Positions 5,752 to 58,528 of a stretch of 64,000 nt of DNA are shown here, one piece after another. A program made the position numbers and the translations under genes. The stretch comes from Thiocapsa marina 5811. Its GTDB lineage: Bacteria; Pseudomonadota; Gammaproteobacteria; Chromatiales; Chromatiaceae. Numbering within the stretch: position 1 is the first letter of the stretch; the number at the start of each line of letters is the position of its first letter. The notes under the pieces are model-generated. The model did no database searches and was not told the origin of the DNA. It worked only from the letters and a program-made list of their open reading frames with translations. The stretch covers positions 248,001-312,000 of the forward strand of contig NZ_AFWV01000006.1 of the NCBI RefSeq assembly GCF_000223985.1, in the 5' to 3' direction.

Positions 5752-6608
5752 GTCGCTACTCCAATCAAGGTGAGACCCAAGGCAAACACGGGTGCAGCCG
5801 CCGTCAAGCTGTCGATGCGGTCGAGCATGCCGCCGTGGCCCGGCAAGAGATGACTCGAGTCCTTCAGACCGCGGCGACGCTTGAGCAGGCTCTCGTAGAG
5901 ATCTCCGACGATCGAGATCACGACGGCGACGCCGCAGACCAGCAGGATCAGCAGGGTTGCAGTCGGGCTCGCGGACAGGATCCGGGAAAACGCCAGACCG
6001 CAGACGGCGGCCCCGACGATGGCCCCGTAAACGCCGACACGTGTCTTGCCCGGACTGAGCACGGGCGCAAGCTTCGCCCGACCGTCGCCCCAGGCGCGGC
6101 CGACAAAATAGGCCATCGAATCGGCGGTCCACATCAGAAAGAGCAGGAAGAGAACGAGTGCCGGACCCGAATCAGGAAGCCCATGCAGATGGATCAGCGC
6201 CGCCCACGGACCGACCAGAACGAGAAAACCGGCGGGCAGCAAGGACCATTGGACGCCCTCGACTCTCGGGATCTCACGAATCTGCGGCAGAGCAAACGCC
6301 TGCACGACCCACCACAGGGCGCTGAGACCGAAAAACCAGGGTTGAGCCTGCGGCCAAATCCAGACAAGCGCCATCACGCCGAGGATGCTCGTCGGATAGA
6401 GGGCGCGCGCGATCGGCCGCGTCAGTCCCGCCAGCGTGCACCACTCGACAGCGGCCAGCATCAAGACACCGGCCAAGACAAGTGCGAAGGCCGGCGTCGG
6501 CAGCCACAGGACAGCGGCGATCACGAGCGGCACCAACGAGAGCGCCGTGATCGTTCGGCGCTTCAGCGCATTGGAGACAGGCAAGACGTCAACCCCGCCC
6601 ATACGCAC
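5748..6608 (-). CDS. cdsA: Phosphatidate cytidylyltransferase
   Basis: Makes CDP-diacylglycerol from phosphatidate and CTP, the branch point of phospholipid synthesis, in the inner membrane. About eight hydrophobic segments are visible. The C-terminal CDS signature is complete: [20 protein letters not shown] followed by GMLDRIDS. The 286-residue frame starts at an ATG that overlaps uppS by 20 bp; a GTG at 6576-6578 (VSNALKRR) is an alternative start closer to the usual N terminus. Confidence 0.95.
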
Positions 6609-7386
6609 TCATCGGATCACGCGACGCCACCTGCTCGCCCGTTCGCCCGAACCGCCGCTGACGGCGGGCGTAGTCGTCGAGTGCTCGACCGTAGGCCGCC
6701 GCGTCGAAGTCGGGCCACAGGAGGTCGGTGAAGTAGAGCTCGGCATAGGCCGACTGCCAAAGCACGAAATTGCTCAATCGCTGCTCCCCGCCGGTGCGAA
6801 TGAAGAGGTCGGGTTCCGGGAGATCGGGAAACGACAGGCGGCTCGTCACCGCCTGCTCGTCGATCGCATCCGGATCGAGCGACCCGCTCAGCACATCCGC
6901 CACCAAGCGCCGAGCCGCACGAGCAATGTCCCAGCGCCCGCCGTAATTGGCCGCGACCTGGAGATTCAGTGACCGGTTGCCTCCCGTGAGCTCTTCGGCC
7001 TCGGCGATGCGGCGCTGTAGCTTTTCGGGGAAGGCCTGGCGCTCGCCGATGATGCGAAGCCGAACATCGTTGTCGTTCAAACGACGCACTTCACCCCGCA
7101 AGGCGCTCATAAAGAGCTCCATGAGGATATTCACCTCGGAACGAGGTCGCTGCCAATTCTCGCTGCTGAAGGCGAACAGCGTCAGTGTGCCGACGCCGCG
7201 GCGGACGCTTTCCTCGACAACGGCCCGAACGCTCTTCACCCCCTCTCGGTGACCCGCCGTGCGGGGGCGATCGCGCTGCTTGGCCCAGCGGCCGTTGCCG
7301 TCCATGATGACGGCGACATGTCGAGGCACGGACGGATCAGGTGAATCCGAATCACGCATGCCGGCTGCGGGCGTTGCAATATCCAC
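6589..7386 (-). CDS. uppS: Isoprenyl transferase (undecaprenyl pyrophosphate synthase)
   Basis: Cis-prenyltransferase that extends farnesyl pyrophosphate to the C55 carrier for peptidoglycan and other wall polymers. The diagnostic motif VAVIMDGNGRWAKQR covers about residues 24-38, with catalytic Asp at 29; the C-terminal RTGGEQRLSNFVLWQ and YFTDLLWPDF motifs are also present. At 265 residues it has about 15 more at the N terminus than typical members, so a start at the ATG of MRDSDSP (residue 10) is possible. It lies between frr and cdsA, the conserved order. Confidence 0.95.
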   Translation of the reverse strand: MDIATPAAGMRDSDSPDPSVPRHVAVIMDGNGRWAKQRDRPRTAGHREGVKSVRAVVEESVRRGVGTLTLFAFSSENWQRPRSEVNILMELFMSALRGEVRRLNDNDVRLRIIGERQAFPEKLQRRIAEAEELTGGNRSLNLQVAANYGGRWDIARAARRLVADVLSGSLDPDAIDEQAVTSRLSFPDLPEPDLFIRTGGEQRLSNFVLWQSAYAELYFTDLLWPDFDAAAYGRALDDYARRQRRFGRTGEQVASRDPMSAYGRG

Positions 7387-7417
7387 GTTGATCGTCGTCG
7401 GGCTCGCCCGCCCCGCC

Positions 7418-7975
7418 TCAAATCGACATCAAGTCCGCTTCTTTCTCCGCCAAAACCGCATCCACATCCTTGATGTATTGATCGGTCAGCTTCTGAACGA
7501 GCTCTTGACCGCGGCGCTCTTCGTCCTCGGAAATCATCTTGTCCTTCACGAGCTCCTTGAGATCATGGTTGGCATCGCGACGAATGTTGCGCACGGCAAC
7601 CCGCGCCTGCTCGGCCTCGTTGCGTGCGACCTTGATGAGATCGCGCCGCCGCTCCTCGGTCAGCGCCGGCATGGGAACCCGAATGACCGTCCCCGCGGTG
7701 TTGGGATTGAGCCCGAGGTCCGACTGCATGATGGCCTTCTCGACGGCCTGCACCATGTTGCGTTCCCACGGCGTGACGGCAAGCGTTCGCGCATCTTCCG
7801 CGCTCACGTTGGCCACCTGACGAATGGGCATCTCGGAGCCGTAATAGGAGACCATCACATGGTCCAAAAGGGAGGGATGCGCCCGGCCGGTTCGAATCTT
7901 GGCCAGCTCGTGGCTCAGGGCTTCGACACTCTTGGCCATACGTTCCGCAGCGTCCTTCTTGATGTCGTCGATCAT
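7418..7975 (-). CDS. frr: Ribosome recycling factor
   Basis: Splits the post-termination ribosome together with EF-G. The 185-residue length is exactly that of the family. Recognisable blocks are [21 protein letters not shown] near residue 28, the conserved [14 protein letters not shown] and the C-terminal helix region ([19 protein letters not shown]). It starts one base after the pyrH stop, so the two are probably translationally coupled. Confidence 0.97.
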
Positions 7976-7976
7976 G

Positions 7977-8699
7977 TCAGTTCCCGCTTACGACCAACGA
8001 GCCGACGTCTTCGCCGCGAATCAGCCGCAGCAAGGCACCGGGCTCGTTGATATTCATTACACGCAGTGGCATACCATGGTCACGACAGAGCACGATGGCC
8101 GTCGTGTCCATAACCTGCAGTCCTTCACGAAGCGCACGATCATAACTGATGCGGGGGTAGAAGGTCGCCCCCGGATCGATCATCGGGTCGGCCGAGTAGA
8201 TGCCGTCGACCTTGGTGGCCTTGATCAGCAGATCCGCACCGACCTCGATCGCACGCAGACTGGCCGCAGAATCGGTCGTGAAAAACGGGTTGCCGGTCCC
8301 GGCGGCGAAGACGACTACGCGACCCTTCTCGAGATGGCGCATGGCACGTCGCCGGATGTAATCCTCGCAGACCTGATTGATCTTCAGGGCCGACATGACG
8401 CGCGCCGGGACACCGATGCGCTCGAGCGCATCCTGCATCGCCAGCCCGTTCATCACGGTCGCGAGCATCCCCATCTGATCCCCGGTGACGCGGTCCATCC
8501 CCTTGGCCGCAAGACCCGCCCCGCGGAAGATGTTCCCGCCACCGATGACGAGTGCCACCTGAACACCGACGGCGGCGAGGTCACGGATCTCGCCGGCAAA
8601 GCGGTCCAGAATCTCCGGATCGATGCCGTAAGCCTCGGAGCCGACCAGTGCCTCGCCGCTGAGCTTGAGCAGGATGCGTCGATATAGGGGCGCCGTCAT
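7977..8699 (-). CDS. pyrH: UMP kinase
   Basis: Hexameric bacterial UMP kinase of the amino-acid-kinase fold, giving UDP for nucleotide and wall-precursor synthesis. The phosphate-binding KLSGE is at residues 12-16, GGGNIFRG near 53, and the nucleotide-binding [13 protein letters not shown] block near 140. The length is 240 (family about 240). It follows tsf after a gap of about 215 bp that holds a TAAACCGC element, so the operon is interrupted by a repeat here. Confidence 0.97.
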
Positions 8700-8831
8700 G
8701 GCGGGAGAACCTCGTCATGGGTTGAGTCGGAGAAGGCGGCGCGAGATTCGCGCAGCCCTCGGGGCCCATTCATCTGGATGGGGTCGTTTGGATGGCGTCG
8801 GGTCGCGTCGCACCGACCGAATCGTGCAGCC

Positions 8832-8916
8832 TAAACCGCGCCAGCTCCGGCGTCCGTCAAGTCCGCAGGGGCCGGCCCCATCCAAAAACTTCGCATACCG
8901 CGCCGGGTGCGGTTTA
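8832..8916. repeat. TAAACCGC-family element, B type (tsf/pyrH gap)
   Basis: Begins TAAACCGCGCCAGCTCCGG and ends CGCCGGGTGCGGTTTA. The inner part resembles the B-type copies at 18001 and 42481. The tsf stop codon TAA (8914-8916 on the minus strand) is the terminal motif itself. Confidence 0.75.
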
Positions 8917-9801
8917 GGTCGAGCGAACCTGTGCCATGACCTCTTCGGCGAAGTTCTCGACCTTCTTCTCGATGCCCTCGCCGACCTCGACACGGGCAAA
9001 GCGGTGCACCGCTGCGCCCGCCTGCTTCAGGAGCTTCTCCACCGAGGTGTCGGGATCCTTCACGAACGGCTGACCGAGCAGGGTGACCTCTTCGAGATAC
9101 TTGCGCACGCGCCCGTCGATGATCTTGTCCACGATCGCCTCGGGTTTGCCGCTGTCGAGCGCTTGCGCCTTGAAGATCTCACGCTCTTTGGCGAGCGTCT
9201 CGGGCGGAACCTCGTCGGCCCCGAGGCACAGCGGGTTGGTCGCGGCGATGTGCATCGCGATGTCGCGTCCGAGGGTCTCGTCGCCGCCGCTCATGTCGAG
9301 CACGACGCCGATACGAACACCATGGCGGTAGCTGTAGAGACGGCCTTCGACATCGTCGAAACGGACTAAGCGACGCACCTGGACATTCTCGCCGATCTTC
9401 GTGATCAGGGCCTCGCGAGCCTGGTCGACGGTGGTCGACGGGGCGTCCCGCAGAGGTGTTGCCGAGAGCGTCTCCGCATCGGCCATATCGCCGGCGAGCG
9501 CCGTCGCTGCGGTCGATTGCGCAAAGTCGAGAAAGCTGGCGTCTTTTGCTACGAAATCGGTCTCGCAGTTGATCTCGACCAAGACACCGCGCTTGCCGTC
9601 CGGCGCGATCTCGATCATGACCACGCCCTCGGCCGCCGTGCGTCCGGACTTCTTCGCAGCCTTCGCCTGACCGGCCTTGCGCATGGCCTCGATCGCCGCT
9701 TCGATATCGCCGTCGGACTCCACCAGCGCCTTCTTGCACTCCATCATGCCGGCGCCGGTGCGCTCCCGGAGCTCTTTCACCAATGCCGCTGTAATCGCCA
9801 T
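8914..9801 (-). CDS. tsf: Translation elongation factor Ts
   Basis: Nucleotide exchange factor for EF-Tu. The N-terminal UBA-like domain (LVKELRERTGAGMMECKKAL, residues about 7-26) is typical, followed by DGDIEAAIEAMRKAG and the core NCETDFVA motif near residue 78. The length is 295. The open frame extends about 87 codons upstream through the rpsB-tsf gap, but the family start is the ATG at 9799-9801. Directly downstream of rpsB as in most bacteria. Confidence 0.97.
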   Translation of the reverse strand: MAITAALVKELRERTGAGMMECKKALVESDGDIEAAIEAMRKAGQAKAAKKSGRTAAEGVVMIEIAPDGKRGVLVEINCETDFVAKDASFLDFAQSTAATALAGDMADAETLSATPLRDAPSTTVDQAREALITKIGENVQVRRLVRFDDVEGRLYSYRHGVRIGVVLDMSGGDETLGRDIAMHIAATNPLCLGADEVPPETLAKEREIFKAQALDSGKPEAIVDKIIDGRVRKYLEEVTLLGQPFVKDPDTSVEKLLKQAGAAVHRFARVEVGEGIEKKVENFAEEVMAQVRST

Positions 9802-9937
9802 CGTTTGGTTCCTCGGTCCCTCGCGGGACGCATTCGAGTTTGTCTGGATGCGTTCGCGCCCGAGTGCTCGGGTGCGAACGGCGAATGAGAGGGGCGCCCG
9901 GATCGAGTCCGGACGCACCCGAATCGACGCAGCCGCT

Positions 9938-10708
9938 CTACTCGGCTTCGGCGACGGCGCTCGGCGCCGCTTCGCTCTCGACGGGGGCGTCGATAAAGGT
10001 ATCGCCGCGACCGACCATGGCGGCCGCAGTGTTGCGGCCGTCGAGGATGGCGTCCGCCGCACCGCTGATGTAGAGGCGAACCGCGCGGATGGCGTCGTCG
10101 TTGCCCGGGATCACGTAGTCGACCTTGCTCGGGTCGTTGTTCGTATCGACCACGCCGACCACCGGGATTCCGAGCTTGTTGGCTTCGGTAACCGCAATCT
10201 TCTCATGGCCGACATCGACCACGAACATCGCGTCCGGGAGGCCGTCCATGTCCTTGATACCGCCGATGCTCTGCTCGAGTTTGGCGCGCTCGCGTGCGAG
10301 ACCGAGCGCTTCCTTCTTGTTGAATCGCTCGATCGTGCCTTCGGCGAACATCGTCTCGAGCTCTTTGAGCCGCTTGACCGAGTGCCGAATGGTCTTGAAG
10401 TTGGTCAGCATGCCGCCGAGCCAGCGATGGTTGACATAGGGCATCCCGCAGCGCAGTGCCTCTTCCTTGATGGCGTCTCGTGCCGCACGCTTGGTGCCGA
10501 CGAAGAGGATACGGCCGCCGTTGGCCGTCAACGAGCCCATGAAGTTCACCGCCTCTTGGTAGAGCGGCAGTGTCTTCTCGAGGTTGACGATGTGGATCTT
10601 GTTGCGTTGCCCGAAGATGAAGGCCCCCATTTTGGGGTTCCAGTAGCGGGTTTGGTGTCCGAAATGGACGCCCGCTTCCAACATCTGGCGCATGGTGACT
10701 TCGCTCAC
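9938..10708 (-). CDS. rpsB: 30S ribosomal protein S2
   Basis: Small-subunit protein S2, 256 residues. The start region [20 protein letters not shown] is the usual S2 N terminus; [19 protein letters not shown] and [10 protein letters not shown] are further family blocks. I chose the GTG at 10706-10708 because AGGAAG lies at a normal distance and because family members begin just before MRQML; an open frame upstream is not conserved. First gene of the long operon, with a divergent map gene on the other side. Confidence 0.97.
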
Positions 10709-45181: not shown

Positions 45182-45258
<77 letters not shown>

Positions 45259-45468: not shown

Positions 45469-46674
45469 ATGCCCCTGACAGACGCCAAGGTCCGCAACGC
45501 CAAGCCGGCCGGCAAGATGTTCAAGCTCTACGACGAGCGCGGCCTATTCCTCATGGTCGCGCCCGAAGGGGGCAAGCTGTGGCGGTTCCGGTACCGCATC
45601 GACGGCAAGGAAAAGCTGCTCGCCTTGGGTGGCTACCCCGACGTGGGACTGAAGGAGGCCAGAGAGAGACGCGACGATGCCCGAAAGCTGCTCGCTGCCG
45701 GGGTTGATCCGGGTGCAGCACGCAAGGCGCAGAAAGCAGCGCGGATCGAGCGCGCGACCAATTCGTTCGAGGTGATCGCTCGGGAGTGGTTCGCGAAGAA
45801 CGAATCGACGTGGGCACCGAGCCACAGCACGCGCGTCTTAAGGCGCATGGAGCGTGACATCTTCCCCTGGATTGGCGGCTCCCCGATCGCAGACCTGAAA
45901 GCCCCCGAGATCCTCGCGACCGTCCGACGCATCGCAGAACGCGGGGCACTGGAGACCGCGCACCGGGCGTTGAGCGACATCGGCCAAGTGTTCAGGTTCG
46001 CAATCTCCACCAGCCGAGCAGACTCGGATGTTACCCGTGATCTGCGCGGGGCACTCCCGACAGCACAGGACGGGCACTTCACGGCAGTGACAGACCCAGT
46101 GGAAGTCGGCGCGCTGCTGAGGGCATTGTGGGGATATGAGGGCACGCTGACTGTTAAGTGTGCGCTGCGGCTCGCTCCGCTTGTCTTCGTTCGGCCGGGA
46201 GAGCTGCGGGCGGCACGATGGGCAGACTTCGACCTTGACGCGGCCGAATGGCGGTTCACGGTAAGCAAGACCGACACGGACTTGATCGTCCCCCTCAGCC
46301 GTCAAGCCGTCGAGATCCTTCGGGAGATCGAGCCGGCCACGGGGAATGGTGAATATGTCTTCCCGAGCGCACGCACCCCGCGACGGCCGATGTCCGACAA
46401 CGCCATCCTGTCGGCGATGCGGAGGATGGGCATACCGAAAGAGACCGCGACCGGGCACGGCTTGCGCGCAACGGCTAGAACACTGCTCGACGAAGGACTC
46501 AAGTACCGGCCAGACCTGATCGAGCACCAGCTTGCCCATGCAGTGCGGGACGCGAACGGCCGAGCCTACAACCGCACGAGCTACCTGGACGAACGGCGCG
46601 CGATGATGCAGGAGTGGAGCGACTATCTCGACAAGCTGCGCATCGGCGCGAACGTGCCCCCGGGCGCGGCTTGA
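45469..46674 (+). CDS. int: P4-type tyrosine integrase
   Basis: Site-specific recombinase of the P4/DUF4102 class, 401 residues. The N-terminal DUF4102 arm-binding domain ([40 protein letters not shown]) is followed by the SAM-like core-binding domain and the catalytic domain: first Arg in [14 protein letters not shown] near 244, the HGLRATART motif (H-x-x-R) near 330, HQLAHAV, and the nucleophile Tyr near 366 in [14 protein letters not shown]. It would cut the tRNA-Ala site. It starts directly downstream of the arm-site region. Confidence 0.96.
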
Positions 46675-47827: not shown

Positions 47828-48316
47828 ATGACCACCGACTTAAACCGCCTACCGCCCGAGGTCCGGGCGCACATCGCTTTCCAGGCCCCGCCGTCCGGTA
47901 CCCGCGTTCACGCCCTTCTGAACAGACTTGAGGGCGTCCGCGCTGCCGGGGATGGCAAATGGTCCGCCCGCTGCCCCGCGCATGAAGACCGATCGCCGTC
48001 ATTGTCCGTGCGCGACACCGGCGAGCGTGTGCTGCTGCATTGCTTCACAGGCTGCGAGTCCGAGGACGTGTTGGCCGCGCTCGGGCTGACGTGGAGCGAC
48101 CTTTACGAAGACCGACTGGACGCCGCGCGCTTCGCACAACGCCCGAACAAGGCACTTCGCCGCCGTATGGCCGACCTTGATCCGCTGGAGGTCGAGCGCG
48201 CCGTGCTACGTATCGCCGCTACCGAGATCCGATCCGGTCGCGTGCTCGGTGTCGAGGATCAGGCCCGCGTCGAGGTTGCCCGCGAGCGACTGAAGGCATG
48301 GGAGGGAGCGCGATGA
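47828..48316 (+). CDS. CHC2 zinc-finger primase-like protein
   Basis: 162 residues with a CHC2-type zinc ribbon of the DnaG/TOPRIM-primase kind: SARCPAHEDRSPSLSVRDT followed by RVLLHCFTGCESEDVLAAL (C-x2-H ... C-x4-C pattern, near residues 42-75). No TOPRIM or polymerase motif follows, so the protein is only the N-terminal part of a primase. It overlaps the next gene by four bases and probably acts with it in island replication. The ATG at 47828 is chosen for its position before the conserved block. Confidence 0.75.
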   Translation: MTTDLNRLPPEVRAHIAFQAPPSGTRVHALLNRLEGVRAAGDGKWSARCPAHEDRSPSLSVRDTGERVLLHCFTGCESEDVLAALGLTWSDLYEDRLDAARFAQRPNKALRRRMADLDPLEVERAVLRIAATEIRSGRVLGVEDQARVEVARERLKAWEGAR

Positions 48317-49905
48317 GCACCGCACCCGTCTACAAGTTCGACCCCGATGAGCTGGAGCGGCTGGCTGGCGTGGAGCCGGCAAACGAGCCCGTCGCCCCAC
48401 CAGCGGAGCCGGAGGAATGGCCGAAGATCCAGCCGATTCCTGCGACGCTCTACCCGGTCGATCCGTTCGACATGGCGCTATTGCCCGAGTCGCTGCGAGG
48501 CTGGATCGCCGACGCCGCGGAGCGGATGCAATGCCCGCCGGACTTCCCCGCAGTGGGGGCAATGGTGGCCCTGTCGTCCGTAGTCGGGCGCAAGTGTGTC
48601 GTCAGGCCCAAACGGTTCGATGATTGGGAGGTTGTGCCGAACCTGTGGGGCGCAGTGGTCGGGCGCCCGGGGATTATGAAAAGCCCGGCGCTATCGGTCG
48701 CGCTCAATCCGCTGGATCGGCTACAGACCGCGGCCCGTGACGCGTTCAAGGATCAAGTCTCGCAGCATGAAGGCGCGGAGATCATCCGTGAGATGCAGGC
48801 CAAGGCCGCCAAGGACCAGGCTCAGAAACTGGTCAAGGGCGGCAAGATCCTTGAGGCTGAGGCCGCGCTGCGTTCGATGGGAGGGGATGAGGGCGACCCG
48901 CCCGCGCTGCGGCGATACAAGGTGACAGACACGACGGTCGAGGCACTGGGGGAGATCCTCATCGACAACCCGTGGGGCGTCCTGGCCTACCGCGACGAAC
49001 TTTATGGGCTGTTGCGCGGGCTCGACAAAGAGGGTCAGGAGGGCTCGCGCGCCTTCTATCTACAGGGGTACGACGGCAACCAAGGCTACACCTTCGACCG
49101 GATCATGCGAGGCAAGAACCTGCACATCGAAGCCGTCTGCGTGTCGATGCTCGGAGGCATCCAGCCGGGCAAGCTGAAGTCATTCATCCGTGAGGCCGTC
49201 ACCGAGGGTGCGGGCGACGACGGGCTGTTGCAGCGATTCAGTTTGATGGTCTGGCCCGACCCGTCGCGCGACTGGAAGAACGTGGACCGCTGGCCCAACA
49301 CCGACGCCAAGGCCAGCGCCTTCAAGGTCTTCGAGAAGCTCGATGGGATCAAGCCGGACACCGACCCCGACACCGGGCGAGATGTCCCGTGGGTCTACCG
49401 CCTGTCGGAAGCCGCGCAAGAGCTATTCGACCACTGGCGTGCAACCTCTTTGGAGCCTCGCCTGCGGGATGGGTCGATGCACCCGGCGCTGGAGTCGCAC
49501 CTCGCGAAGTATCGAAAGCTGGTGCCCGCGGTCGCCTTGGTTTGTGCGCTGGCGGACGACGAGGAAGCCGTGAGCGAGGCGTCGATGCTGCGTGCGCTGG
49601 CGTGGGCGGGGTACCTAGAGTCGCACGCACGACGGATCTACGGAGCAGGGACCGGCGCCGACGTGGACGGGGCAATCGCCCTGCTGGCGAAGATCAAGGC
49701 CCGTGCAGTAAGCGACGGATTCAAGGCGTCCGACATCTACCTGAAAGGATGGGCGGGGGTGGCGGGCGTCCAGGCGACGCGTGACGCCCTGCGGATCTTG
49801 TGCGACTTGGGCTATCTGCTGCATGTCTCGACCAAGCCCGGCCCTGCCGGCGGGCGCCCGTCCGAGGCATATCGGATCAACCCCGCAGTGTTCGGGGGGC
49901 GCTGA
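48313..49905 (+). CDS. DUF3987 protein
   Basis: 530 residues of the DUF3987 family (phage/plasmid helicase-like). VVGRPGIMKSPALSVALNPL is its P-loop-like motif near residue 121; GVLAYRDELYGLLRGLDKEG and FDRIMRGKNLHIEAVCVSM are also typical. These proteins are encoded beside CHC2/TOPRIM primases in islands and are thought to be replication ATPases. The ATG overlaps the previous stop (ATGA); a stop-start overlap with the next frame follows (TGATG). Confidence 0.88.
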   Translation: MSTAPVYKFDPDELERLAGVEPANEPVAPPAEPEEWPKIQPIPATLYPVDPFDMALLPESLRGWIADAAERMQCPPDFPAVGAMVALSSVVGRKCVVRPKRFDDWEVVPNLWGAVVGRPGIMKSPALSVALNPLDRLQTAARDAFKDQVSQHEGAEIIREMQAKAAKDQAQKLVKGGKILEAEAALRSMGGDEGDPPALRRYKVTDTTVEALGEILIDNPWGVLAYRDELYGLLRGLDKEGQEGSRAFYLQGYDGNQGYTFDRIMRGKNLHIEAVCVSMLGGIQPGKLKSFIREAVTEGAGDDGLLQRFSLMVWPDPSRDWKNVDRWPNTDAKASAFKVFEKLDGIKPDTDPDTGRDVPWVYRLSEAAQELFDHWRATSLEPRLRDGSMHPALESHLAKYRKLVPAVALVCALADDEEAVSEASMLRALAWAGYLESHARRIYGAGTGADVDGAIALLAKIKARAVSDGFKASDIYLKGWAGVAGVQATRDALRILCDLGYLLHVSTKPGPAGGRPSEAYRINPAVFGGR

Positions 49906-50973: not shown

Positions 50974-51258
50974 ATGAACCACCTCCCGCTCGCAATGACC
51001 CTCGGACTGATTTTCGGCCCCGCCATTGCTTCCGAACCATGGTTTCCGGGTGCTCCCGGAATCGGTCAAGGCGCACGGACAGAATCGACAGAGTTCGGCG
51101 GCACGACGACCACGACCGGTACGATCGACGGGCAAAGGCTTCGTGCGGAAACGACAACCTTCGGCGGCACGACGACCACCACCGGTACGTTCGGCGGCCA
51201 GCAATTTACGTGCGAGGAGTTCGAGTTCGGAGGAACCGTGACGCGGAAGTGCCGGTGA
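50974..51258 (+). CDS. Small secreted repeat protein
   Basis: 94 residues. Signal peptide MNHLPLAMTLGLIFGPAIAS, then an internal tandem repeat: TEFGGTTTTTGTIDGQRLRA and TTFGGTTTTTGTFGGQQFTC, ending EFGGTVTRKCR with a Cys pair. The DNA repeat is nearly exact over about 39 bp. Proteins with T-x-x-G-x-T repeats and a terminal Cys pair are common small secreted unknowns. ATG 50959 is an alternative start. Confidence 0.65.
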   Translation: MNHLPLAMTLGLIFGPAIASEPWFPGAPGIGQGARTESTEFGGTTTTTGTIDGQRLRAETTTFGGTTTTTGTFGGQQFTCEEFEFGGTVTRKCR

Positions 51259-51563
51259 ATCGCGCGACCCGACGTCGGCTCCGGAGGCGGTCGACGCCCT
51301 TAATCCACTCAAGTTGCCCTACGCGGGCAAAGCATCCAGATCGCTGCGGACTCAAGACCTAAGTATCCACGAGGCGTACACTTAACCCTGTCACCCACAA
51401 ATGGCGCTCTGCTATTCCCGGAAAAAGCGCCCTTTCCTGCGCAGTTTGCAGCGATGAAGCTCAAAGTCAGGTTGGGCACATCGATGAATGCCTACCAAAG
51501 GGCGGGCGTGAAGGGGTAGAGCGCCATTACGGATGAAGATCGGAAGACGACTCGCGTTGTTCA
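51259..51563. other. Gap, no gene seen
   Basis: Between the secreted repeat protein and the convergent unknown gene. No frame with host-like codon use; no clear terminator. Confidence 0.3.
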
Positions 51564-53142: not shown

Positions 53143-53459
53143 ATATGACCCTCACGCCGCCCGGAAAACAATCAGCGAAGGATTGAAGATCCAATCCACA
53201 GAAAATTGACACAGGAAAGACTTGAAAGCATCCATCTAAATCCGCTTCGCCTACCTAGACCACGACCCGAGTCCCAAGAACCAGGCCCGACCGCTGTTAT
53301 GGATAGGCGCAAGCGAGACGATGATACCGGCCAGCGATCCGTCTGTCGCGCCCTGCCGGACGCGCACTGTGTTCGCTGCCGACCCCAAACCGCAAGGCGG
53401 TCGCCCCCGCTTCCGGGGAGAAGCCGGCGAATCTCACCTGATGCCCCTTGTTTTTCGGC
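53143..53459. other. Gap before the iteron gene, no gene seen
   Basis: No supported gene. An imperfect GC-rich hairpin lies near 53406-53432 (CCCCGC...CCGGGGAG). The 3' end leads into the first two GTTACAGTGAC sites. Confidence 0.3.
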
Positions 53460-53501
53460 GTTACAGTGACAGAATGGGACCACCTAGATTGTTACAGTGA
53501 C
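53460..53501 (+). promoter_or_regulatory. Two GTTACAGTGAC sites upstream of the iteron gene
   Basis: Exact copies at 53460-53470 and 53491-53501, 31 bp apart. The second ends six bases before the ATG at 53508, in the place of the ribosome binding site, which suits an operator for repression of translation or transcription. Confidence 0.65.
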
Positions 53502-53507
53502 GCGAAC

Positions 53508-54038
53508 ATGACCGACTCGACGACCCCGAAGACGACGAGCGCCCAACGCCAAGCGGCTCTTCGCAGGCGTGCGAGCGAGCTGGCCTATGGGCTCGATGAC
53601 AGCGAAATCGGCAAGGCCGCCGACAGCACACTCTTCGAGGCGATTCCCCAAGCCTTCCGGCTCAAACAGTCCGTGGCCATCGAGAGCATCGCCGCCGAAC
53701 TGGTGCGCCGCTTGCGTGCTCGATCCGTTACTGTGACGACCCCCGAGGCGCCAGAGGTTACAGTGACGATTCCCGAGCCGCCGCCCGTTACCGTGACGGA
53801 GCCACAGCCGAAGCGCGTCACAGTAACGAGCCAAACGGATCAGGCCACCGTCGGGCTGCATGGCGTCACTGTAACGAAGCGAGGCTATCCGCCAGCCGTC
53901 AAGCAAATGGCAATCGGGATGCTGGACGCGGGCGCATCGTCGCGGGATGTCTGCGAGGCGATCCAGGCGGCACACGGCAAGGCGCCCGATGTCTCGAATC
54001 TGGCCCGGCTGGCCCGAGGATGGCGCGAGACGCTGTAG
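53508..54038 (+). CDS. Iteron-carrying gene: candidate DNA-binding protein with VTVT repeats
   Basis: 176 residues. The N-terminal half (SAQRQAALRRRASELAYGL, AFRLKQSVAIESIAAELVRR) is helical. A linker then repeats VTVT every ten residues (VTVTTPEAPE, VTVTIPEPPP, VTVTEPQPKR, VTVT, and one more later), and the coding DNA of every VTVT is a GTTACNGTGAC-type site. The C-terminal 50 residues (PPAVKQMAIGMLDAGASSRD, VCEAIQAAHG) look like an HTH. I infer a DNA-binding protein acting on its own sites. A TTG at 53448 would extend the frame and make site 1 also encode VTVT. Confidence 0.7.
   Translation: MTDSTTPKTTSAQRQAALRRRASELAYGLDDSEIGKAADSTLFEAIPQAFRLKQSVAIESIAAELVRRLRARSVTVTTPEAPEVTVTIPEPPPVTVTEPQPKRVTVTSQTDQATVGLHGVTVTKRGYPPAVKQMAIGMLDAGASSRDVCEAIQAAHGKAPDVSNLARLARGWRETL
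53727..53875. repeat. Iteron array inside the gene: five GTTAC-type sites
   Basis: Sites at 53727 (GTTACTGTGAC), 53757 (GTTACAGTGAC), 53787 (GTTACCGTGAC), 53817 (GTCACAGTAAC) and 53865 (GTCACTGTAAC). The first four are spaced exactly 30 bp; the last follows at 48 bp. The last two are in inverted orientation. Confidence 0.85.
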
Positions 54039-55056
54039 CAGCCCCGTGGAGCCGCCGCCGAGGGCGACCGCACCAACCCACAGAAAAGGCGTGCCGAGGG
54101 CGTGGCGGGCCGGTCTGGACGCCCGAGGGCGACCCCATCATCCCAGACGGGAGGTCGCACTGCTCCGGGGAGCTGACCGTCGGTAAACCCCCTCGCGATT
54201 CAACTGCCGAAGGGGGATTTGCCGCTCCGTGTGGCGCCCCAGACGGATGATCGCCCCAGGTTCGCGGAGAAGCCCGTAGAACCCGCAAGGGTCGCGCGAC
54301 GTGACCCCAAAGCCGACTGCGCGTCGGTTTCCCCTCGGTTCAAGCGAGGGTCCGCAGACTGTGCGTATCCTTCCGCCCGGACCCCGAAATAAGCTACCTT
54401 CACCGGGTACCAGACACTCAAAGCGGGGTAGATATGGGGGTATACGAGAAAACGGATCATAAAAAACCTATTCAAAACATAGCCATGCGCGACGAGTTCG
54501 GTAGACCTCGGCTCCACCAATAAAATTGATTTTCTTCATTATTTACAGCGCCTTACAATGCGCTTATCTCTTTCGATCCCCCAATTGGTCCCCCACCTGA
54601 ACAGGGAAGTTCGCGATCGCGGGAGGACATCCGCGAACGGTTAGCGTGGCGACTCCGCAAATTTCACCCCTCCCTAAGACGCAACACTCTCGTTCCCGCC
54701 CATGATTGTCGGCGTTAGGTGCCGGCATCCGACAGTCCAAAACAGTGTTTCGAGCACCGCGCCTCGGATGCTCGAAGGTGGGCCGGAAGATCCGAGCATG
54801 GAACTGCCTAGAATCCGCGTCTGTTCTGCGCTCACTGCTGCACAAGAACCGAATCCCCCTGCGCCGAAATCGAGGCTAGAGACCGGCGATTCTAACCCTG
54901 ACCTCGCCTGCCCAGTCTGCAAGTCGATCGACGCGATCCGAGCGTCGTCAGACCACATCTCCTCGCATATCAGACATCTCGAAACCCTTCGAGAAACCTC
55001 ACAACCGACGTGATATCCGTTGGGAAAAAAGCGCGAAGGAAACCGTCACGTAAAAG
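54039..55056. other. Gene-poor region across the island end
   Basis: About 1 kb with no frame I can support. The island side (to 54520) has the second arm-like GGGGTAGATATGGGGGTA at about 54425. Beyond attR, 54521-55056 has lower GC and short inverted repeats (CGCGATCGCG at 54612-54621). Frames such as 54702-55013 plus lack a start and codon bias. Confidence 0.35.
54506..54520. repeat. attR: copy of tRNA-Ala 3' end
   Basis: CCTCGGCTCCACCAA, identical to 45244-45258. Marks the right end of the island. Confidence 0.85.
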
Positions 55057-55415: not shown

Positions 55416-55922
55416 GACATGATTTTCTTTGAGTGAAGTAAGGAAGAAACGGCTTCTGATAAATGAAGATGAGTAAAGCTCGTCGTCGTGACTCTTCGCC
55501 GCTCGGATTCTATTGTAGCCAGACGATCATCACGCGAACGCCGCAGCCTGTCAATACTCGACAATGACCGTGGCAGCGGTACTGCTTCTCTTGTCGCACT
55601 AAGCGATCATGCGTGCAGCCTGCCCTATAGCACTTAGGTGCCCTCCCCGAGAAGGCCCCTACCGCCGTTTGACCACACTCCTCCGAGAATCGCGATCGCT
55701 CGACGGTTGCCTTCTGCGTTCGCCTGGACTATTGTGAACGCCAAGCTCGGAGGGTCCGAGTCCGTCGCTCTTCATATCCAGACAGGCGACACCACCACTA
55801 CGCTGAAGATCGATCTCCCCTGCTCTTACTCTTACACTTTACTAAGTCAAACTTACTCGCTCGCTACACTTACTCTTCTAATTTCGCATCGTTCCAACGC
55901 GTATTCTTGTTTAAGAGTACAC
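55416..55922. other. Gap, no gene seen
   Basis: AT-richer stretch; a frame from 55638 continues into the AlpA-like gene but the codon content upstream of 55923 does not look coding. Confidence 0.3.
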
Positions 55923-56123
55923 ATGGCAAATAATACGCAGAATCCGACAAGTCATCGTCTGTTACGTTTAAAGCAGGTCCTGGAAATAACAGGTCTCGGC
56001 AAGACAAAAATATACAGCCTGATCAAACTGAATCAGTTCCCTGCCCCGAAGAAAATCGGCCGTATATCCGCTTGGCTGAACACCGATATCGATGACTGGG
56101 TAACTGGCTGTAGCTCGAAATAA
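55923..56123 (+). CDS. AlpA-like DNA-binding regulator (second)
   Basis: 66 residues, a standard AlpA family protein: RLLRLKQVLEITGLGKTKIY, SLIKLNQFPAPKKIG and ISAWLNTDIDDWVTG form the winged HTH. The ATG at 55923 gives the family-typical N terminus; a frame extends upstream. Its presence outside the first island hints at a second, damaged element. Confidence 0.85.
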   Translation: MANNTQNPTSHRLLRLKQVLEITGLGKTKIYSLIKLNQFPAPKKIGRISAWLNTDIDDWVTGCSSK

Positions 56124-57078: not shown

Positions 57079-58528
57079 CCCAATGCCATTAAGTTAAGCC
57101 CTAGCGGCAGCGCTTGTAGTTGGGATGGAAGCGTTTTGGCGTCGTGGACTTGATGTGACGCGGGAACGACCGATCGGGCCGGATCGCCTCCACCTCCAGG
57201 GCCATGGCGCAGAGGAGCCGTTCAAGGAGGTCGGGCGGTGGCTCCGCAGAGAGCAGGCGCACGACGTTGTCCTTCATTTTCGACAGTGCGTTGGCGAAGT
57301 TGACCTGATAGCCGCGTCGGCGCTCCTGATACAGGCGCGTGGTCATCCATTGCGCCACCCACACCAGGATCGCCGTCAGGTTGAGCGTCAAGATCTTGGC
57401 GAGGACGTCCTGCTTGAGCGCGTGCACCGTGCGCCCGGAGAAGTTTTCCACCTCGACCCGGGATTTTTCCGTTTTGTACCCCTCCTCAATGCCCCAGCGC
57501 AGATGGTACAAGTGCTTGAACAGCGGCGTGGGGAATGCCTCCTCGTCGAGCAGCGAGGTGATCAGGAACTCCTCCTCCCCGCCCTTCAGGCGCACCCGAA
57601 TCAGGCGCAGCCGCAGCGCCTCGGTCGGCAAGCCAAAGGCTTGGCATTGGCGACGCGCTTCATCGCAAGGCGTCAGCTCAATCACGGCGCTGTGCGCGTC
57701 ACCGGCGGCAAACGCCTGCACCTCGGTGCAGAAGGCGCGCGGCACACGGACACAGAAGTGGCGTTGCTCGACGGCATGGGAGGCAAACAGCCAGAACGCC
57801 GGATAGCCGCGATCGTAGAGCAGCAGATCATCAACCCGTGTCGCCGGCAGATACTCGCCGGCCAAAATGCGCTCGCCGAGGCTCAACGGCTCGATGTCCG
57901 CCGCCACGACCAGGCGATTGAGCACGTCGTACAGCCGCGAGAAACGCGCCTGCGGTGTCACCTCCCCGGTTTGCCCGAACGCCTCCACGATCGCCGGCTC
58001 CTTGGGCAGCAGAAACGTCGACCCGTCCACCGCCAACAGCCGAAAACCGTGCCAGCGGCGCATCGGCAGCGTGCGCATCGCCTCGTTCACCAACACCTCA
58101 CTGAGTTCGCTGAACGCCTCGGGACGCAGCTTGGCGCGGGCTTGGGTCAGCGCCGACTTGGAGACACTGTCGGCCAGCGGTTGCTCGCAGACGACCTCGA
58201 AGAAGCGGTCCAATTCGTCCTGGTTGGCACCTTTGCGTAAGTTCAGCAAAAACCTCACCAGTTGCGGCAGCGGCAGCTTACGATCGCGCGTGAACGCGTT
58301 CTCACCGACCCGGTGGCGCTCCAGAAAGTCCGACGATGCCAAAGTATTGCTTATAGCCCTATAGATCGAAGAAAATCACCGTTATGTGTGCGATTTCAGT
58401 GGGGGTGAAGTCGGTCGCCTTGGGTTTGAGTACCATTTGGGTGCCCTCGCATCGGGTTGTGAATACAGAACTATTCTAACATTGTCAGATAGTTATGATT
58501 CAAAAAATGCTAACTTAACGACATTGGG
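57079..58528. mobile_element. IS4-family insertion sequence
   Basis: Ends are CCCAATGCCATTAAGTTAAG on the left and CTAACTTAACGACATTGGG on the right, imperfect inverted repeats. The flanks carry a direct repeat TGTTTGCCCC (57069-57078 and 58529-58538; up to 14 bp if some G/C are counted), as expected for the 10-12-bp duplication of IS4 elements. One transposase gene fills it, so the copy looks complete and young. Confidence 0.85.
57101..58342 (-). CDS. IS4-family transposase
   Basis: 413-residue DDE transposase. The Asp residues are in LLAVDGSTFLLPKEP (near 108) and DDLLLYDRGYPAFWLF (near 180), and the Glu is in the IS4 motif LRWGIEEGYKTEKSRVE (near 292, Y-x2-R-x3-E-x6-K pattern). A TTG start is used or the real start lies a few codons upstream. 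No frameshift or stop, so it may be active. Confidence 0.92.
   Translation of the reverse strand: MASSDFLERHRVGENAFTRDRKLPLPQLVRFLLNLRKGANQDELDRFFEVVCEQPLADSVSKSALTQARAKLRPEAFSELSEVLVNEAMRTLPMRRWHGFRLLAVDGSTFLLPKEPAIVEAFGQTGEVTPQARFSRLYDVLNRLVVAADIEPLSLGERILAGEYLPATRVDDLLLYDRGYPAFWLFASHAVEQRHFCVRVPRAFCTEVQAFAAGDAHSAVIELTPCDEARRQCQAFGLPTEALRLRLIRVRLKGGEEEFLITSLLDEEAFPTPLFKHLYHLRWGIEEGYKTEKSRVEVENFSGRTVHALKQDVLAKILTLNLTAILVWVAQWMTTRLYQERRRGYQVNFANALSKMKDNVVRLLSAEPPPDLLERLLCAMALEVEAIRPDRSFPRHIKSTTPKRFHPNYKRCR

Follow-up and report, generated by a model that had tools for sequence, protein, structure and literature searches.

Our analyses of a 64,000-nucleotide stretch of the genome of the purple sulphur bacterium Thiocapsa marina 5811, referred to here as the window, support the proposal of a first-pass annotation that one gene's coding sequence also serves as an array of DNA sites linked to the region just upstream of that gene. 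From the sequence, we consider it reasonably likely that this gene encodes a self-repressing regulator of a satellite-like element and that its operators extend into the gene itself. Seven exact GTTACNGTGAC sites lie within 416 bp, five in forward orientation (starting at 53460, 53491, 53727, 53757, and 53787) and two in reverse (53817 and 53865), where 0.0004 exact sites would be expected by chance; all the positions and orientations first reported were recovered. The 5.59-Mb genome holds eight exact matches, seven in the array and one elsewhere, so the sites are not scattered through the genome, an outcome against which the annotation had asked its reading to be checked, and the reversed pattern, taken as a control, has three exact matches in the genome. 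With up to one mismatch allowed, the window contains 12 matches versus 1.58 expected, a number attained in none of 100 shuffles.

The site array and the element that carries it

The features of the array and of the surrounding element are as follows, in window coordinates.

53448-53475, forward strand: weak sigma-70-like promoter candidate, TTGTTT-N16-CAGAAT (from the sequence and the relatives' register)
53460-53470, forward strand: site O1, GTTACAGTGAC, at -48 from the ATG
53491-53501, forward strand: site O2, GTTACAGTGAC, at -17 from the ATG, in the Shine-Dalgarno place
53508-54038, forward strand: gene of the 176-aa putative regulator (from alignments and codons)
53727-53737, forward strand: in-gene site 3, GTTACTGTGAC, encoding VTVT
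53757-53767, forward strand: in-gene site 4, GTTACAGTGAC, encoding VTVT
53787-53797, forward strand: in-gene site 5, GTTACCGTGAC, encoding VTVT
53817-53827, reverse strand: in-gene site 6, reverse orientation, encoding VTVT with GTC/GTA codons
53865-53875, reverse strand: in-gene site 7, reverse orientation, encoding VTVT with GTC/GTA codons
45182-45257, forward strand: tRNA-Ala (CGC), the element's integration site (ARAGORN)
45244-45258, forward strand: attL, a 15-bp direct repeat of the tRNA-Ala 3' end (exact repeat with 54506-54520)
45469-46674, forward strand: tyrosine integrase (Pfam Phage_integrase, Phage_int_M, Arm-DNA-bind_3)
48298-49905, forward strand: DUF3987 protein, called "primase" in PICMI satellites (Pfam PF13148, E=2.7e-87)
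54506-54520, forward strand: attR, the 15-bp tRNA-Ala 3'-end repeat (exact repeat)

The spacing measured is that given before, 31 bp between the upstream pair and steps of 30, 30, 30, and 48 bp within the gene, and all five in-gene sites encode Val-Thr-Val-Thr in frame, as had been read. Sites 3-5 do so with GTT and GTG codons and sites 6 and 7 with GTC and GTA codons, the latter two being, as DNA, the same word as sites 3-5 on the opposite strand; neither GTT nor GTA occurs at any of the gene's six remaining Val codons. The four in-gene copies at 30-bp steps show some similarity in their flanks. Upstream, the site at 53491 is out of frame relative to the gene, and that at 53460, which shares the gene's frame, could be coding only from a start at TTG 53448; alignments place the relatives' start codons at ATG 53508 and not at this TTG. 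By eye, site O2 takes the Shine-Dalgarno position before the ATG, in agreement with the first-pass annotation, and O1 falls in the spacer of the promoter candidate, which is not the top scorer of the scan.

The 176-aa protein consists of an N-terminal domain (to about aa 72), a linker with the five VTVT copies (about aa 74-123), and an HTH-like C-terminal GYP..GKAP..N..W region (aa 125-176). It has no Pfam or NCBIfam match above curated cut-offs, its best family-library matches, ChrB_C (E=0.055) and phrog_6334 (E=0.009), are not confident, and a PDB sequence search returned no match below E=0.33. The gene sits near the far end of an element of about 9.3 kb at tRNA-Ala. A six-frame search found no AlpA between the att repeats (there are five AlpA matches genome-wide), the sole match in the window, at 55953-56102, lying beyond attR; the AlpA-type regulator at 55638-56123, just past attR, possibly belongs to a second, adjoining element. 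Elsewhere in the window, an ORF at 57101-58342 resembles an IS4-type transposase by eye, and an ORF end at 51000-51260 carries a repeated FGGTTTTTGT peptide.

A family with one layout and many motifs

Relatives of the protein were found in 19 of 190 genomes (E<=0.01), and a profile search found members in 25 of 210 genomes of the Chromatiaceae, the family of Thiocapsa. At class level, two of the 369 genomes matched the profile, that of the window itself and G481 (E=5.5e-6), and a search of genome contigs gave four loci, all in Thiocapsa, Thiodictyon, or Imhoffiella, so that among the genomes searched the protein family is confined almost wholly to the Chromatiaceae. By tblastn, the window protein has no match in phages or plasmids, the member at locus L078 none in phages, and that at L080 none in plasmids, and L083 gives weak matches, in its C-terminal part, to two Microbacterium phage records; two scans of viral contigs revealed no relative. 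PHROG 6334, a group of phage proteins of unknown function, resembles the N-terminal domain of L078 (E=2e-8), with weaker matches for L080 (1e-4) and the window protein (0.009). Searching phrog_6334 across the class gave 3 of 369 genomes (L094-L096), whose short proteins, unlike this family, have no such linker; the palindrome GTGATGCMTCAC was seen by eye upstream in L094 and L095.

Some members sit on tRNA-bounded elements with an integrase and a primase. For example, a second element in the window's own genome (L074, 5436-11674, tRNA-Ser) carries a paralogue in the PICMI-like order int, family gene, AlpA, and DUF3987/RepB-primase protein, and a DUF927 gene lies near the family gene in L078. 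In L077, a segment of some 3.9 kb enclosed by 14-bp tRNA-Ser repeats (6691-10589) includes a family member and, by a six-frame search for these two, neither phage integrase nor DUF3987, and is possibly a non-autonomous element. Directly downstream of the L078 gene lies a DUF5681 protein (9198-9698, Pfam), to which ORFs in L079 and L075 are similar by eye, and in L080 an ORF upstream of a large primase-like ORF (5870-6604 in gene orientation) is ParB-like by eye.

About a dozen different palindromes share a common layout, in which copies lie at about -49 and about -16 and again in the linker codons; the words are 8-13 bp long, palindromic or near-palindromic, and clustered. Near relatives of the window gene carry GTCACNGTGAC (L074, L088), GTGACNGTCAC (L077, L016), GTTACNGTAAC (L087), or a mixture of such words (L075), and because all of these still read VTVT in frame, the change of word is synonymous in the gene. 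Distant members carry GTTKCNGMAAC (L085, L092) or GNAACNGTTNC (L080, L089, the former with five in-gene copies at exact 45-bp steps), and further loci carry the GTCACTGTGGC type (L078), GTTGNNNCAAC (L064), GTMTCNGATAC (L065), GTCTAGAC (L066), GTYASTRAC (L079, L082, L083, L084, and, in upstream copies only, L076), or GTTAC-N3-GTAAC (L053/L093, with nine copies in L093); GTCACAGTGAC and GTGACAGTCAC are among the relatives' motifs. As these members use different palindromes, their linkers read VAET, VTD/VSD, VSDT, LPGN, or VVTT instead of VTVT. Some genomes carry two or three variants. Paralogues differ in motif in G000, G002, G004, G037, and G248 and share one in G058 (L083, L084) and G270 (L100, L116); incompatibility is thus a weak candidate for the driver of motif change, G058 and G270 each holding two of the same motif.

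The first-pass annotation had proposed the codons of VTVT in homologues as a check, and their use is not free. Across seven VTVT loci (the remnants L019/L058, L033/L081, and L145 being left out, and Val usage being approximate, as taken from long open frames), all 14 scored coding sites fall in the same synonymous class as the non-coding sites at their locus, a fit reached in 1 of 100,000 trials in which sites were shuffled among loci. One L016 site outside the scored stretch, where the frame is broken, mismatches its locus, so that 14 of 15 is the fair count. The locus-matched synonymous bases, together with the different linkers of members with other palindromes, argue that the DNA sites shape the peptide and not the reverse.

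For a count of the layout, we asked for one 11-mer that occurs at least twice in the 110 bp upstream and at least once inside the gene. This was found in 26 of 39 family ORFs (with start codons placed by hand, truncated ORFs included, L067 passing on an unrelated word, and the word of L057 merely overlapping its own palindrome) versus 19 of 600 ORFs taken from these loci as controls, and with at least four copies in 22 of 39 versus 1 of 600. Several of the 13 failures are truncated; others look intact and gave no motif, among them L059, L061, and L062, which are RHH-like by eye. A profile of the second class of members (class B), which have a coiled-coil-like N terminus, hit 27 places, of which 13 were taken, the other 14 being in loci already studied, and eight of the 13 gave an ORF by the script's rule. 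Four of these eight (L100, L116, L101, and the re-found L103, which is L067) have the GTYASTRAC pair expected for the class plus an in-gene copy, which in L101 overlaps the stop codon, one (L106) has in-gene copies only, and three have none. In a further set of six loci, four of them already among the 39, none of the five ORFs scored has the layout, though inspection by eye shows single sites in L141 and L145. Three class-B members (L082 362-967, L083 9991-10521, and L079 9724-10221) show a basic AERQRRYxERLKA stretch that leads into a coiled-coil-like region, together with a palindromic GTCANTGAC-like site; by eye, protein and site recall bZIP proteins.

Across the family, the regular spacing reported for the window is kept within a class by the upstream pair, near three helical turns in the window's own class, and not by the in-gene sites. 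Among 27 loci picked because their motif was known, the distance between the two upstream sites is 31-35 bp in 16 of 16 loci of the window's class (class A), 26 bp in eight of nine class-B loci and 28 bp in the ninth, 27 bp in L053, and 22 bp in L066, with the second site beginning 14-29 bp before the ATG. In-gene steps, on the other hand, run from 22 to 78 bp and more, with one to five in-gene sites per array and no in-gene copy by the patterns used in L091 and L076. In 18 of 23 loci, versus 5.9 expected with shuffled flanks, site 1 falls between the -35 and -10 boxes of the best-scoring sigma-70-like promoter (site-1 positions were entered by hand, some one or two bases off); in the other five, the window included, the top-scoring promoter does not enclose it. 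The sites, their layout, and a locus-specific motif common to coding and non-coding sites can be read directly from the DNA, and overlap with a predicted promoter is seen in most loci tested.

The first-pass annotation noted the HTH-like C terminus and proposed that the protein binds the array. Across 16 members, motif similarity follows similarity of the N-terminal domain (rho 0.70, 0 of 5000 permutations) and not that of the C terminus (rho 0.15, 900 of 5000), four of the 20 loci (L092, L084, L091, L065) being dropped for having no in-frame C terminus; within the window's class (n=12) both track the motif about equally (0.50 and 0.48), so that either domain may be the one that binds.

Proposed autoregulation and its rivals

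On our reading, the protein would be a sequence-specific DNA-binding regulator of the 9.3-kb tRNA-integrated element, and the palindromes would be its own operators. Binding at two points a set distance from each other, O1 in the promoter spacer and O2 ahead of the start codon, would repress the promoter; such a pair of putative operators, at a predicted promoter and a start codon, is the layout of a co-operative self-repressor. The operators in the linker codons would carry the protein-DNA complex into the gene and strengthen repression by co-operativity, looping, or an elongation block, and since the in-gene steps vary, these sites probably act less precisely, through local concentration, looping, or such a block. 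In-gene operators may also let gene dosage sense the copy number of the element. In L074, the locus motif lies just before and inside the integrase start, and in its near relative L088/L039 just before it; the integrase of the window element has no additional site. Given the same sites at the integrase start, the regulator probably restrains excision in the L074 lineage. We infer, on sequence grounds, this protein as the binder, together with repression, looping or roadblock, copy sensing, and excision control.

The strongest rival is a replication origin inside an initiator gene, as in phage lambda O, where the sites would be iterons, the protein the initiator, and a DUF3987/DUF927 primase-helicase would be loaded there. 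The presence of DUF3987 in the window and L074 elements and of DUF927 near the gene in L078 fits this scheme, as do the one to five in-gene sites, which are reminiscent of the mid-gene iterons of O (PMC7466680), and local GC dips over part of the L080 array (0.45-0.49), just after the L074 gene (0.50-0.52), and about 0.9-1.1 kb after the window ATG (0.45-0.46). We nevertheless regard an origin as unlikely, because a 100-bp GC profile of eight loci shows no AT-rich stretch at a constant place, seven of the eight arrays lie in DNA of GC at least 0.58, the layout centers on the predicted promoter, and the L077 tRNA-repeat stretch has neither DUF3987 nor phage integrase by the search for these two.

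It is improbable that the protein is an accessory factor of excision or integration, with sites near the element end organizing an att complex. The L074 gene, between integrase and AlpA, occupies the slot of iolg/icg in PICMI satellites (PMC10803314), two L074 sites begin 156 and 231 bp from their own att repeat, and the genes of the window, L077, and L079 are each about 0.7 kb or less from an element end. Yet about 630 bp separate the end of the window array from the nearest att repeat, and about 310 bp that of the L077 array, and the constant distance is to the start codon, not to att. A partition or silencing complex, in which the protein would coat the array for segregation or silencing in a ParB/parS-like manner, likewise has a poor chance of being right: palindromes clustered in and around the gene of a putative binder do resemble the parS site inside the Bacillus ParB gene, but the sites are placed at the predicted promoter, and a six-frame search for AAA_31 found no ParA-type match in the window. 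The sequence does not show the role in replication or segregation first suggested for the protein.

That the DNA identity is an incidental side effect of a repeated VTVT peptide has almost no likelihood left and is already contradicted, since, although four of the five copies in the gene follow at 30-bp steps with some flank similarity and may owe something to unit duplication, identical sites lie upstream, one out of frame, the reverse-orientation copies use other codons, the synonymous codons are locus-specific, and relatives with other peptides have the same DNA layout. RNA hairpins as the selected feature were also discounted by argument, as a 1-nt spacer cannot close a loop (that of the N3 class could), O1 would precede the start of the transcript, and the array has copies on either strand.

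Relation to known systems and what the family may offer

Among known cases, parS lies within spo0J, the Bacillus ParB gene, and a replication origin lies within repC. The self-repressor that we favor can be set against three described systems. Phage lambda O has its iterons in the middle of the initiator gene, and is alike in that the coding sequence contains sites for its own product (the in-gene sites here being putative) and in that extra iterons add residues (PMC7466680). It differs in that the sites here lie also at the predicted promoter of the gene, are 8-13-bp palindromes differing by locus, and come with local GC dips (in L080, in L074, and after the window gene) and no AT-rich stretch at a constant place. 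The repressor of cluster A mycobacteriophages acts through operators and stoperators, sites beyond the promoter blocking elongation; as here, one repressor has many sites, and motif and protein diversify together, whereas stoperators lack symmetry and are dispersed across the phage genome (PMC6550527) and the palindromes here are clustered in and before one gene. In PICMI satellites, iolg is needed for excision and fis is the integration site, in place of the tRNA genes used here; L074 shows int, family gene, AlpA, and DUF3987 in the PICMI order, with the family gene where iolg/icg stand (PMC10803314). The window element has an integrase and DUF3987 between its att repeats and lacks AlpA there, and we therefore do not class it as PICMI.

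The first-pass annotation knew of no described system with iterons in a VTVT linker. A gene holding the sites of its own product (lambda O, PMC7466680) and a multi-site repressor with co-diversifying specificity (cluster A, PMC6550527) are already known. Our search of one open-access library, on the other hand, found no whole family that has palindromic operators in the codons of its linker and rewrites them at each change of specificity; a family of this sort seems to be new.

Because the putative operators lie in coding sequence, each change of specificity would rewrite the linker peptide, and the series of loci suggests a natural set of matched protein-DNA pairs. We see about an even chance that the whole represents a family of mobile-element regulators that carry their recognition sequence in their own linker, in which operators and linker change together, with about a dozen natural pairs and the gene acting as a copy-number or immunity sensor. 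If so, the family would be a compact natural experiment in the evolution of DNA-binding specificity, with operator and protein readable from one gene, and would show coding DNA under selection for a regulatory role, to which the peptide conforms; regulators of this small size might also act as orthogonal laboratory switches.
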